Shown here in pieces: positions 333 to 9,902 of a stretch of DNA of 12,011 bases. The notes under the pieces are model-generated. The model ran no database searches and was not told the origin of the DNA. It was given only the letters and a program-made list of their open reading frames with translations. Each line of letters opens with the position of its first letter. The stretch's first letter is position 1. The DNA is from Syntrophaceae bacterium (lineage in GTDB: Bacteria; Desulfobacterota; Syntrophia; Syntrophales; UBA2185), in contig JAFNGM010000101.1 in assembly GCA_017885225.1 (NCBI GenBank), positions 2,526 to 14,536 on the forward strand, written 5' to 3'. The position numbers and the translations under genes were made by a program.

Positions 333-378
333 AAATTTCTAAGAGCTTTGAAATAGTGTTCAAAGCTCTTAGAAATTT
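333..378 (-). terminator. 20-bp perfect hairpin over the stop codon of the Do-family protease gene
   Basis: Arms at 333-352 and 359-378 are perfectly complementary (20 bp) with a 6-nt loop. The hairpin begins inside the protease gene's TAA stop (377-379). There is no uninterrupted U tract after it on the minus strand, so it may act as a terminator, a 3'-end-stabilising hairpin, or both. The plus-strand side is T-rich. Confidence 0.5.
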
Positions 379-1843
379 ATTTCGTTGATTCTTTTTTCAG
401 CGTGACAAAGAAGGTCGTTTCCCCTCTCTTGATTAACAACAGAATCGTTTCTTCCTGAGAATCTTTCGTCATTTCGTTGAGAAAATCTTTGATGGAGAAA
501 ATTTTTACCTTATTGATCTGGAGAATAATATCCTGGGCTTTCAATCCGGCGTCATCGGAAGGGCTTCCCTCCCGAACCTGGGTGATAATAACCCCGTATT
601 TATCGGAAAACCCGAAATGTCTGGCCATCTCGGGGGTAATATCCTGGACGGTCATGCCGTAGTGTTCGCCAATTTTGCCTTTGCGGGCGATCTCTTTCTC
701 TTCCTTTCGTTCACCGATGATGACGTCAATCTTTTTTTCCTGGCCATCGCGGATTAATTTCACAGGGGCCTTCTCTCCTGCTTTCAACGCGGCAACAATT
801 CTCAATAAATCCTTGGTATTCTGGATTTTTTTCCCGGCGATTTCTATAATGATGTCACCTGTTTTTACACCTGCTTTGTCTGCGGGGTCCCCCTCAAATA
901 CCTGACCCACGAGGGCGCCTTTTACATTTTTCAGCTTCATAGTTGCGGCAATGTCATCGGTGATATCCTGGACGGAAATCCCCAGCCAGCCGCGGCTCAC
1001 ACTGCCCTTTGCCTTGAGATCATCGAGAATGCTCTTTGCCGTGTTGATAGGAATGGCAAAACCGATCCCGTGTGCCTGAGCAACAATGGCGGTATTGATA
1101 CCGATGACTTCTCCTTCGAGGTTGAAAAGAGGACCGCCGCTGTTGCCGGGATTTATGGAAGCATCCGTTTGAATGAAATTATCATACGGGCCCGAACCTA
1201 TGACACGTCCCTTGGCGCTTACGATTCCCGCGGTGACCGTATGTTCCAGCCCATAGGGGTTGCCGATGGCAAAAATCCAATCACCAATGCGTAATTTATC
1301 TGAGTTGCCAAGCTTCACCACGGGCAGGCTGTTGTCCGGATTAATTTTTATCAGGGCGATATCGGTAGAGGGGTCTTTGCCTTTCACTTCCGCATCGTAT
1401 TCTTTGCCAGTCGCAAGCTTGACCCTGATCTTGGTAGCCTTCTCCACAACATGGTTGTTGGTGAAGATGTAACCGTCGCTGGAAATGATGAATCCTGATC
1501 CGAGGCTCTGCTGTTTGAAGTCCCTTTCCGGCGAATTTTCAAAAAATCTTTTGAAAAAGTCATCCTCGCCGAAAAATCTCGGGTAGGGCATGCGTTGACC
1601 AAAAGGATGACCCGGGCGACCTTTAGTAATGGTTGTCGTCCTTATATTGACCACGCTGGGACTCAATGTATCCACGAGGTCAGCAAGAGACGCCGGTGCT
1701 CCCGCGAGCTTTCCCGCAGGAGCAGCAAAGGCCATATCTGCATCCGTTTCCCCAGGATAGAACGTAACATGTGCCGGATATAGAGAGAAGAGAAAAACTA
1801 CAAGGGGAATCAAAAACAAAAATATTTTAGGTCTGTTTACCAT
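377..1843 (-). CDS. htrA: Do-family periplasmic serine protease with two PDZ domains (HtrA/DegP/DegQ type)
   Basis: This 488-residue protein is a typical full-length HtrA/Do protease that degrades or refolds damaged proteins in the periplasm. Residues about 6-24 are a hydrophobic signal segment. The chymotrypsin-like domain shows the full catalytic triad: His131 in TNNHVV, Asp161 in STDIALIKI and Ser235 in NPGNSGGPL. PDZ1 spans roughly 285-378 and PDZ2 roughly 395-485. A ribosome binding site GGGAGG (1858-1863) lies 14 nt before the ATG. The gene is preceded by a terminator hairpin (1920-1946), so it probably has its own promoter between 1844 and 1920; I see no clear sigma-70 boxes there. The long hairpin at 333-378 closes it. 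Whether it is DegP-, DegQ- or DegS-like cannot be settled here, though two PDZ domains exclude DegS. Confidence 0.96.
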   Translation of the reverse strand: MVNRPKIFLFLIPLVVFLFSLYPAHVTFYPGETDADMAFAAPAGKLAGAPASLADLVDTLSPSVVNIRTTTITKGRPGHPFGQRMPYPRFFGEDDFFKRFFENSPERDFKQQSLGSGFIISSDGYIFTNNHVVEKATKIRVKLATGKEYDAEVKGKDPSTDIALIKINPDNSLPVVKLGNSDKLRIGDWIFAIGNPYGLEHTVTAGIVSAKGRVIGSGPYDNFIQTDASINPGNSGGPLFNLEGEVIGINTAIVAQAHGIGFAIPINTAKSILDDLKAKGSVSRGWLGISVQDITDDIAATMKLKNVKGALVGQVFEGDPADKAGVKTGDIIIEIAGKKIQNTKDLLRIVAALKAGEKAPVKLIRDGQEKKIDVIIGERKEEKEIARKGKIGEHYGMTVQDITPEMARHFGFSDKYGVIITQVREGSPSDDAGLKAQDIILQINKVKIFSIKDFLNEMTKDSQEETILLLIKRGETTFFVTLKKESTK

Positions 1844-2006: not shown

Positions 2007-2027
2007 AAGCCGATTACCTATCGGCTT
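2007..2027 (-). promoter_or_regulatory. SECIS-like hairpin for the C-terminal UGA (Sec69)
   Basis: Read on the minus strand, AAGCCGAT and ATCGGCTT form a perfect 8-bp stem around the loop AGGTA. The loop starts 17 nt after the UGA at 2037-2039, within the spacing known for bacterial SECIS elements, and has the GGU typical of SelB-binding loops such as that of fdhF. It lies wholly after the UGA stop at 2028-2030, so it carries no coding constraint. Confidence 0.75.
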
Positions 2028-2243
2028 TCACACCCCTCATGTGCCGCCGTAGCCGATTGTAACTTTTTTTCCTTCCACAATGACGGGAACCTGCCGAGCG
2101 CCGCCGGAGAGTTTGAGCATCTCCTGTAATTTCGACGCATCGGATTTCACGTCTATGTAAGTTGCCTTTTTACCATATGCCGACCTGGCATCATCTGTGT
2201 AGGCTCACCCCGCCTTTCCGTAAATAATAATCTCGTCTGCCAT
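2028..2243 (-). CDS. UXX-star-type glutaredoxin-like selenoprotein with two selenocysteines (Sec13, Sec69)
   Basis: From ATG 2243-2241 the frame reads 71 codons if two UGA codons are read as selenocysteine: 2205-2207 (residue 13) and 2037-2039 (residue 69), with the real UGA stop at 2028-2030. The first UGA gives Y-G-K-A-G-U-A-Y-T, the place of the CPYC active site in glutaredoxins. The fold continues with the R-Q-V-P-V-I-V segment (cis-Pro53) and a G-Y-G-G-T tail. The last residues are U-G-V, which fits the (seleno)protein family I remember as 'UXX-star' family 1, named for a C-terminal U-x-x-stop. Homology persists across both UGAs, and each has a SECIS-like hairpin (2177-2191 and 2007-2027). 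Function is probably thiol/selenol redox chemistry; the substrate is unknown. A ribosome binding site GGGAGA precedes the ATG, 16 nt after the upstream cyclic-nucleotide-domain gene, so the two are probably co-transcribed. Confidence 0.87.
2177..2191 (-). promoter_or_regulatory. SECIS-like hairpin for the active-site UGA (Sec13)
   Basis: On the minus strand ATGCC and GGCAT form a perfect 5-bp stem around the loop AGGTC. The loop starts 18 nt after the UGA at 2205-2207. In E. coli fdhF, as I remember it, the GGUCU loop sits at the same distance. This hairpin lies inside coding sequence, and its loop nearly equals that of the second hairpin (AGGTC and AGGTA). Confidence 0.75.
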
Positions 2244-2259: not shown

Positions 2260-2745
2260 TTACATTTCAGTCAGAGTAGACAAACCTCTTTCGCCAACCA
2301 GAATGATCTCCGTATGGGTGAGACGGGTGGCGATAACTTTGGCAACGGCGTGCATGAATTTAAACCCCAGGGCTTTGTCTGCATTGAGCATTTCCCTTAA
2401 TTTCGCGGCGTCTAAAGAGAGCAGTTTCGATTCGTCAATACATCGGGCGCCCAATCTGTATATATAGGGTTCCACAACTGCCGACCATCCCATGGCTTCG
2501 CCCTTCGTGACAATATCCACGGTGACCTGCATTGGGGGCCTGTGTGGTCCTACGTACGTATCCATGACCATCAGGACCTTTCCCTCTACCAGCAGCAAGA
2601 GAGCTTTTGCCGGATCCCCCTTTTTCCATACCTGGACACCGGCTTTATACGTATCTTCCGTGGCAACAGCCGCAAATTTCTTTAACTCTTCATCACTAAA
2701 CCCTTTAAAAAACGCGAATTGCTTTAAGAGATCTACCGAAATCAT
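2260..2745 (-). CDS. Cyclic nucleotide-binding-domain protein without a DNA-binding domain
   Basis: This 161-residue protein is a single CRP-like effector-binding beta-roll: an N-terminal L-K-Q-F-A-F-F-K-G-F-S-D-E-E-L helix, a Y-K-A-G-x-x-V-W-K-K-G-D-P-A strand turn, L-L-L-V-E-G-K-V, and the G-E-A-M-G-W-S phosphate-cassette region, followed by a C-helix (about 120-150). CRP/FNR regulators are about 200-250 residues and end in a helix-turn-helix; that part is absent, so this is not a DNA-binding regulator by itself. The usual phosphate-binding Arg of cAMP receptors is not evident, so the ligand is uncertain. The ribosome binding site AAAGGAGGGA (2753-2762) fixes the start. It is probably the first gene of a unit with the selenoprotein 16 nt downstream, which hints at a redox or energy-sensing job (inference). 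Confidence 0.88.
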   Translation of the reverse strand: MISVDLLKQFAFFKGFSDEELKKFAAVATEDTYKAGVQVWKKGDPAKALLLLVEGKVLMVMDTYVGPHRPPMQVTVDIVTKGEAMGWSAVVEPYIYRLGARCIDESKLLSLDAAKLREMLNADKALGFKFMHAVAKVIATRLTHTEIILVGERGLSTLTEM

Positions 2746-9274: not shown

Positions 9275-9330
9275 GTCGAACACGAAGTTCACCGGGAGCG
9301 TACGCGATCCGGTGGAACGTTTCGTTACCC
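9275..9330 (-). other. attC-like recombination site after the parE-type toxin gene
   Basis: Minus strand, left to right: R'' GGGTAAC (9330-9324), arm GTTCCACCGG (9318-9309), loop, arm CCGGTGAAC (9295-9287), R' GTTCGAC (9281-9275). The arms pair perfectly except for one extrahelical C, a hallmark of attC. The toxin's TAA stop (9327-9325) lies inside R''. R'' is the exact complement of GTTACCC at 9985-9979, the R' at the cassette's other end. Confidence 0.75.
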
Positions 9331-9624
9331 GTTATTTTTCTCAGGTTCATCAGGAAGCTGAGCACCATGCCATACAGCTACAATCCAAACGACATCATCT
9401 TTGACCCTATAAAAAAAACGATATGACCTTACAATCACTTCACGAAAAGGGAGATCAGGGAACTCCGGCAGTAGTCTGCCAGAATCGGGAAATTCCTTGA
9501 GACGGGAAAGTGTTTTCTCTGCCTTTTGGAGAAAGCTCACCGCCGCAGAAGGCTTATCGTGGTGAATATAAGAAACTGCTTCAAGAAACTGGCGACGGCC
9601 TGTGGGTGTAAATAAGATTTTCAA
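9325..9624 (-). CDS. RelE/ParE-superfamily toxin
   Basis: The 99-residue basic protein has the ParE/RelE pattern: an N-terminal strand (M-K-I-L-F-T-P-T-G-R-R-Q-F), two helices, L-K-E-F-P-D-S-G-R-L-L-P-E, and a C-terminal sheet with R-E-V-I-V-R-S-Y-R-F-F-Y-R-V and V-W-I-V-A-V-W-H-G. ParE-type members poison gyrase and RelE-type members cleave mRNA on the ribosome; the sequence fits the ParE/plasmid-stabilisation branch better, but the target is not proven. The start is a TTG (9624-9622) that overlaps the antitoxin's TGA stop, so translation is coupled and the toxin is made after the antitoxin. A GAGG lies about 12 nt before it. Its stop codon lies inside the attC site. Confidence 0.9.
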   Translation of the reverse strand: MKILFTPTGRRQFLEAVSYIHHDKPSAAVSFLQKAEKTLSRLKEFPDSGRLLPEFPDLPFREVIVRSYRFFYRVKDDVVWIVAVWHGAQLPDEPEKNNG

Positions 9625-9902
9625 GGTTTTGCCGCCTCAAGAAAACGATCAGCCTCCTTCAAAACGTCGTCAAGCGTGTAACCAAGGCCTGATGCTATTT
9701 CTTTCTCGCCTCTCGCCAACAAGTGCAAAATAGTCATTTCGTGTTGAGAGTTCTCATATACTTCCATACTGACCATGACTGCTGCTGCTCTTCCGCGTTG
9801 GGTGATGAATACAGGATCTCTCGAAGAAGACACCTTCTTGATCACATCGCTGGCATTTTGTCTAAGATCGGAAATTGGTATAATTCGGGGTGCCCTTGGC
9901 AT
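9621..9902 (-). CDS. Phd/YefM-family antitoxin
   Basis: The 93-residue protein opens with the typical I-P-I-S-D-L-R-Q-N-A-S-D-V-I-K-K-V DNA-binding region followed by P-V-F-I-T-Q-R-G-R-A-A-A-V-M-V-S-M-E-V-Y-E, the Phd/YefM signature. The C-terminal part (about 55-93) is the flexible toxin-neutralising segment. It lies first in the operon with the ParE-type toxin. A ribosome binding site AGGAGG (9911-9916) lies 8 nt before the ATG and a near-consensus promoter is just upstream (9929-9957). Such antitoxins repress their own promoter, and the palindrome at 9939-9953 is a likely operator. Confidence 0.92.
   Translation of the reverse strand: MPRAPRIIPISDLRQNASDVIKKVSSSRDPVFITQRGRAAAVMVSMEVYENSQHEMTILHLLARGEKEIASGLGYTLDDVLKEADRFLEAAKP

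Follow-up and report, generated by a model that had tools for sequence, protein, structure and literature searches.

A glutaredoxin-like protein of UXX-star family 1 with two predicted selenocysteines and a candidate SECIS element beyond its stop codon

Introduction

UXX-star family 1 is tabulated in a 2026 review as a glutaredoxin-like family with two selenocysteines (Sec) and a UxxT site (PMC13188914). No function is stated for this family in the portions of the literature consulted, and its name does not occur in the consulted part of PMC2398784, the work credited by the review (reference 61). The consulted text of the same review describes bacterial SECIS elements (bSECIS) as located in the coding region, with a loop of 3-9 nt, a stem of 4-16 bp, a G in the first two loop positions, a spacing of 16-37 nt and a minimum free energy of -7.5 or below (PMC13188914). 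Among related proteins, the seleno-glutaredoxin cGrx1 of Clostridium oremlandii (7c10/7c12) is described in the part of PMC7642778 consulted as having a U(or C)PxC site that contains a resolving Cys and as being finally reduced by glutathione, unlike the protein reported herein. Classical glutaredoxin 3 (TIGR02181; 3grx) differs in possessing a third helix, which is replaced in the present protein by a Sec-containing tail. To our knowledge, cGrx1 has no C-terminal Sec. Glutaredoxins bind glutathione at the residues preceding the cis-Pro.

In the present study, a gene with two in-frame UGA codons was analyzed in a stretch of 12,011 nucleotides from a Syntrophaceae bacterium (the window). The interest of this locus lies in its unusual tail, a candidate SECIS element beyond the stop codon and an arsenic-associated branch of the family. 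Two problems are raised, namely the capacity of a protein tail to substitute for glutathione within the glutaredoxin fold, and the means by which a Sec-UGA and a stop-UGA only three codons apart are distinguished by the ribosome when the signal lies outside the reading frame.

Materials and Methods

The 118 distinct loci analyzed are those with a seed-profile score of at least 60 bits, drawn from 162 profile hits, among which are duplicates and four weaker glutaredoxins; the loci fetched are part of the matches listed. Profile A1 comprises 91 sequences from the 118 at <80% identity, and profile A2 comprises 33 chosen sequences. The 'Ext' class was set by the insertion motif and not by the tail. 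A second set of 38 named loci, five of which repeat the first set and 33 of which are new, was retrieved by a pattern demanding Cys13. The printed bSECIS rules were coded by the analyst with unbroken stems. Covariation was taken on all 94 non-redundant hairpins; a by-eye subset of 58, in which clean hairpins are favoured, flatters the signal. E. coli served as the control in the search for glutathione genes and was positive each time.

Results

Identification of the gene and its family

An ATG-started frame extends from 2243 to 2028 on the minus strand (Table 1), and its translation is MADEIIIYGKAGUAYTDDARSAYGKKATYIDVKSDASKLQEMLKLSGGARQVPVIVEGKKVTIGYGGTUGV followed by a stop, with TGA as the codon of U13, of U69 and of the terminator. 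The coordinates, strand, length, two TGA codons, C-terminal U-G-V and 12-residue stub given in a preliminary description of this DNA all agree with the reading frame, and the TGA terminator at codon 72 was absent from that description. The locus is thus confirmed as encoding a 71-residue glutaredoxin-like protein with two predicted selenocysteines, of which ordinary software would leave 12 residues. The view that the gene is unannotated holds for ordinary gene callers, whose products end before residue 69 or show Trp at the UGAs, but not in general, as at least one MAG record (P0018) is already named UXX-star. One database entry (P0002), nearly identical to the window protein, carries Cys13-Pro14 and terminates ahead of residue 69; the Ala14 of the window may represent strain variation or an assembly error. 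A chance open reading frame is ruled out by the family profile score, the alignment of 118 distinct homologous loci across these positions and the covarying hairpin described below.

Table 1. Features of the window discussed in the text (positions are those of the window)
Feature	Position	Strand	Remarks
UXX-star family 1 selenoprotein gene	2028..2243	minus	71 codons plus stop
TGA codon 13, predicted Sec at the glutaredoxin active site	2205..2207	minus	motif U-A-Y-T
TGA codon 69, predicted Sec, third-last residue	2037..2039	minus	reading frame, aligned loci
TGA codon 72, true stop, 9 nt after UGA69	2028..2030	minus	reading frame, aligned loci
Candidate SECIS 1, hairpin after UGA13	2177..2191	minus	ATGCC-AGGTC-GGCAT; 5 bp, loop 18 nt downstream
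Candidate SECIS 2 for UGA69, 8-bp hairpin	2007..2027	minus	AAGCCGAT-AGGTA-ATCGGCTT; -9.9 kcal/mol
Cyclic-nucleotide-binding-domain protein	2260..2745	minus	PF00027 sole Pfam match; 16 nt upstream, same strand
DegP/HtrA-type serine protease	377..1843	minus	downstream, same strand

The window protein scored 110.5 bits over residues 5-71 on NCBIfam NF041114 (gluta_UXX_star_1, also called 'distant Grx-like protein 1'; cut-off 72), which bears out the family name given in the preliminary description, and 83.9 bits on the Uxx_star subfamily NF041212 (cut-off 66). The scores on UXX-star families 2 (NF041211) and 3 (NF047338) were 55 bits, under the cut-offs of 100 and 97, and TIGR02181 gave 28 bits, short of its cut-off of 90. 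The NF041114 traits are present, namely the UxxT site (U13-A-Y-T16), U69-G-V-stop and a Sec-decoding host. The relation to glutaredoxins and the two Sec positions, also proposed earlier, are supported by the profile matches, by the AlphaFold model and by the table in the part of PMC13188914 consulted. No Rfam family was matched in the window at its gathering score.

Judged from its sequence, the gene belongs to an already catalogued family, and it shares with NF041114 members the UxxT site, two Sec residues and U-x-x-stop. It is otherwise typical except for residue 14, which is Ala (GCC; window 2202-2207, minus) and is Pro in the other 117 of 118 loci, so that the active-site motif is U-A-Y-T rather than the U/C-P-x-T of other insertion-free relatives. 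The family is common in the phylum, with matches over the NF041114 cut-off in at least 100 of 395 sampled genomes and in 23 of 41 genomes comprising the window's own and 40 relatives. Named Cys13 relatives come from deltaproteobacterial MAGs, Syntrophus, Pelotomaculum, Nitrospirae, Acidobacteria, Planctomycetota and Anaeromyxobacter, among others.

The preliminary description had named an absence of selABCD from the genome as evidence against Sec. The entire machinery was found, including selA (508 bits), selB (398 bits), tRNA-Sec (72 bits) and selD (L173, G000:C79), the last with one in-frame TGA of its own.

Conservation of the two selenocysteines and the tail

Residue 13 is Sec in 104 and Cys in 14 of the 118 distinct loci, and residue 69 is Sec in all 118. 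The 38 loci of the second set, which are silent on the frequency of Cys13 because the retrieval pattern demanded it, have Sec69 in 35, Cys69 in two (L208 and L211) and Ser69 in one (L209); after removal of the five repeats, Sec69 is present in 148 of 151 distinct loci. These alignments, in which conservation continues through both UGAs and Sec or Cys occupies position 13, agree with two expectations raised at the outset, and indicate that Sec69 is near-obligate and Sec13 is exchangeable for Cys. Therefore, the C-terminal selenium is harder to lose, which runs opposite to a simple view of an active-site Sec plus an accessory tail.

The form of the tail is also maintained. Exactly two residues follow Sec in 106 of the 107 insertion-free members (L065 has three), and the second of these is Val or Ile in 107/107. 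Thr16 is likewise found in 107/107; thus, there is no CxxC-type resolving residue, and one would be needed elsewhere. The Cys69 forms L208 and L211 keep the tail form and represent two natural Cys13/Cys69 proteins. No Cys69 form was found among 86 hits in the protein collection (37 read individually); the 86 sequences either terminate ahead of residue 69 or carry Trp at that position. Together with L209, the two Cys69 loci provide a set for studying the loss of Sec. Downstream of the stop in L211 and L209, visual inspection suggests a decayed version of the hairpin seen in related loci.

Candidate SECIS elements

In the window, the hairpin assigned to UGA69 lies wholly 3' of the stop codon (2030-2028), with its loop 17 nt after UGA69. 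A corresponding hairpin was observed in 105 of 107 insertion-free members, with the loop 16-25 nt past UGA69 in 104, GG or GT in the loop in 103, and a stem that starts after the stop codon in 100 and inside it in 5. The mean score of these hairpins was 17.9, compared with 9.9 in shuffles of the same stretch. Across the 94 non-redundant members, the covariation score was 0.615 (0.251 shuffled, at most 0.153 slid), 77.8% of cells pair (58.0% shuffled), and 190 cells are changed on both sides (78.6 shuffled, at most 74 slid). This covariation reflects RNA, because the stretch is non-coding in this frame.

The window hairpin for UGA69 satisfies the coded bSECIS constraints; it shares the loop size, stem, loop G, spacing and energy of the consensus and differs in position, as it is not in the coding region. 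Fits to the coded model were obtained for UGA69 in 74/107 members (the remaining 33/107 second hairpins fail it), for the stop-UGA72 in 2/55 and for ordinary TGA stops of neighbouring genes in 7/128. The published placement of bacterial SECIS elements in coding regions would need qualifying, as they may lie after the stop codon. TGA is the true stop, 9 nt after UGA69, in 55 of the 107 insertion-free members, and no avoidance of a TGA terminator was seen (55/106 versus 129/288 neighbouring ORFs, Fisher p 0.21). Since TGA stops are not avoided and the stop-UGA rarely fits the model, spacing may suffice to separate the two UGAs. A third Sec at codon 72 was rejected, as the hairpin spacing fails the coded model in 53 of the 55 TGA-stop members and the downstream stretch looks unconserved by eye.

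The candidate for UGA13 is less certain. Its energy is -5.2 kcal/mol alone and -12.5 kcal/mol with an outer 4-bp stem. A hairpin with a GG or GT loop follows residue 13 in 95/104 Sec13 and 8/14 Cys13 members, and the loop is 14-22 nt past residue 13 in 75/104 and 7/14, respectively. The scores were 13.2 versus 10.3 codon-shuffled for Sec13 members and 12.2 versus 10.9 for Cys13 members, a weak contrast that led us to reject this hairpin as a sharp discriminator between the two forms.

Predicted fold and glutathione

The glutaredoxin fold is supported by a Pfam PF00462 match (27.7 bits), by the A1 profile, which matches solved glutaredoxins by sequence (best 1.5e-8), and by the predicted model. 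The AF2 model of the window protein, with Cys for Sec, has a mean pLDDT of 87 and aligns to solved glutaredoxins over residues 1-67; a Foldseek search of the PDB yielded nothing within an E threshold of 0.001 (lowest E 1.7e-3). Strand is assigned at residues 51-52 and 69-70, and their presumed pairing is read from DSSP letters; confidence is lowest at the last residue (pLDDT 72). The model of a paralogue with a 13-residue insertion has strands at 51-52 and 82-83 (Sec82) with low confidence in the tail (residues 69-77 pLDDT <50; block 81-90 mean 63), and its other short strands at 65, 70-71, 75-76 and 80 are possible partners too.

Lys10, which we equate with the Lys used by glutaredoxins to bind the carboxylate of glutathione, is present in 99 and missing in 8 of the 107 insertion-free members. 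Glutathione has nothing equivalent to the conserved terminal Val/Ile. No match to gshA-type (PF04107, PF04262) or gshB (PF02955) profiles was found in 41/41 genomes (the window's own, which is ~90% complete, and 40 relatives), which gives weak support to a role of the tail as a glutathione substitute because many anaerobes are without glutathione.

Gene neighbourhood and the Thr10 branch

The gene order on one strand of the window is cNMP-binding protein, UXX-star, HtrA. Within three ORFs of insertion-free members, the cNMP gene was found in 13/107 and HtrA in 12/107, and in 8 loci, the window included, the two directly flank the UXX-star gene. No single partner gene for the whole family was found among up to three ORFs (at least 70 residues) per side, and neighbours vary by clade.

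Thr replaces Lys at residue 10 in 16/118 loci, which form a separate branch. A gene for the arsenite pump Acr3 is near 15/16 Thr10 loci and 0/102 others, a contrast that is suggestive and not a test because the flanks are of unequal length and relatives cannot be counted as independent; in the remaining Thr10 locus (L056), Acr3 was not found even in 7.2 kb. Among the 33 further named loci, Acr3 is near 1/2 Thr10 and 0/31 Lys10 loci. The identity of Acr3 was checked on four of the 15 Thr10-linked pumps, on L201 and on the L003 fragment. These observations are suggestive of a link between the Thr10 branch and Acr3.

Two further glutaredoxin-like genes with in-frame TGA are present in the window's own genome; L003 exceeds the NF041114 cut-off and L004 falls short of it. 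The former (L003:441-713, +) is an Acr3-linked Thr10 paralogue with a longer tail that scores 87.6 bits on NF041114; thus, this model, named for U-x-x-stop, may hold two functions under one name. In L003 (G000:C169), an arsenic-type cluster comprises an Acr3 fragment (run of N), the Thr10 paralogue (U-P-F-C, insertion), an IscA/HesB protein with an in-frame TGA (NF038090) and then a thioredoxin-like protein. The extra tail K-R-P-L-G-E-E of the paralogue overlaps the hairpin (by eye).

Discussion

Several explanations for the second selenocysteine were considered. That UGA69 is a real stop, giving a 68-residue product with one Sec, would agree with gene callers, which end there, and with the 68-residue proteins common in the protein collection. 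We regard this as hardly credible, since the hairpin after UGA69 covaries and in the window conforms to the published SECIS constraints, U-x-x-stop with a last Val or Ile is kept in 106/107 members, and two relatives carry Cys69 with the same tail. Alternatively, the tail Sec might be a flexible relay arm that passes electrons from Sec13 to a partner protein and does not dock in the groove. Mammalian thioredoxin reductase carries its Sec adjacent to the C-terminal residue, and the low certainty of the last modelled residue would suit such an arm; however, the fixed tail length and the fixed type of the last residue argue for a docking site, and no flavin domain was found in the window protein with NCBIfam and Pfam profiles, so that we consider this unlikely.

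Another reading is a metal(loid) site, in which both Sec residues would form a bis-selenolate ligand for a soft metal (arsenite, mercury or another), serving either to hand it to a pump or to sequester it. In favour of this reading, the consulted part of the 2026 review says that a UXX-star Sec may be a metal ligand (PMC13188914), the Thr10 branch of NF041114 is near Acr3 in 15/16 fetched members, and the window's own genome holds an Acr3-linked copy (L003). Against this, the window copy has Lys10 and its listed neighbours are HtrA and the cNMP-binding protein, with no Acr3, and Acr3 is near none of the 102 fetched members without Thr10 and none of the 31 further Lys10 loci. For the window protein, we therefore consider a metal(loid) site rather improbable.

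Herein, we propose that the window protein is a glutathione-independent glutaredoxin with a built-in glutathione substitute and two SECIS-read UGAs, a reading to which we give an even chance. The protein would be a 71-residue selenoprotein of UXX-star family 1, with a glutaredoxin fold from which helix 3 is missing. SelB would read UGA13 via the intragenic hairpin and UGA69 via the hairpin beyond the stop codon, and, judging from the published spacing rules, UGA72 would terminate because it is too close to the 3' hairpin. Sec13 would act as nucleophile in a UxxT site of the monothiol type. The tail T-Sec69-G-V-COO- might fold back along the residues before cis-Pro53, the usual glutathione groove, placing Sec69 where the glutathione Cys would sit. 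The adduct of Sec13 and substrate could then be resolved by Sec69 through formation of an intramolecular diselenide, and an external reductase, probably of the thioredoxin type, would reopen this bond. The host bacteria appear unable to make glutathione, and the tail would supply a substitute. An internal Se-Se or Se-S relay between residues 13 and 69, as suggested in the preliminary description, may operate, with a geometry to which the predicted model lends weak support. Points that weigh against the proposal are the low-confidence tail of the paralogue model with its other candidate strands, the Foldseek result, the ~90% completeness of the genome, Ala14 in this copy, the 8/107 members that do not have Lys10, the terminal Val/Ile, the 33/107 second hairpins outside the coded bSECIS model and the weak evidence for SECIS 1. 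The cNMP-binding and HtrA neighbours of the window copy suggest a role in stress.

Taken together, the propositions that the tail replaces glutathione in the groove, that a Sec13-Sec69 diselenide cycles in organisms without glutathione, that a SECIS element lies past the stop codon with a UGA terminating 9 nt after UGA69, and that a change from Lys10 to Thr marks an arsenic branch are offered tentatively, and we somewhat doubt that all of them hold at once. We do not claim that the 3' SECIS element, the idea of the tail or the link between Thr10 and Acr3 is unpublished.

Additional observations

The second glutaredoxin-like gene of the same genome (L004:1474-1989, -) encodes a protein that combines DUF4124 with glutaredoxin and has a single in-frame TGA (U-P-Y-C); it scores 71.3 bits on NF041212 (cut-off 66) and is without a U-x-x tail. 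Elsewhere in the window, a ParE/RelE-type toxin and Phd-type antitoxin pair was observed at 9325-9902 on the minus strand.
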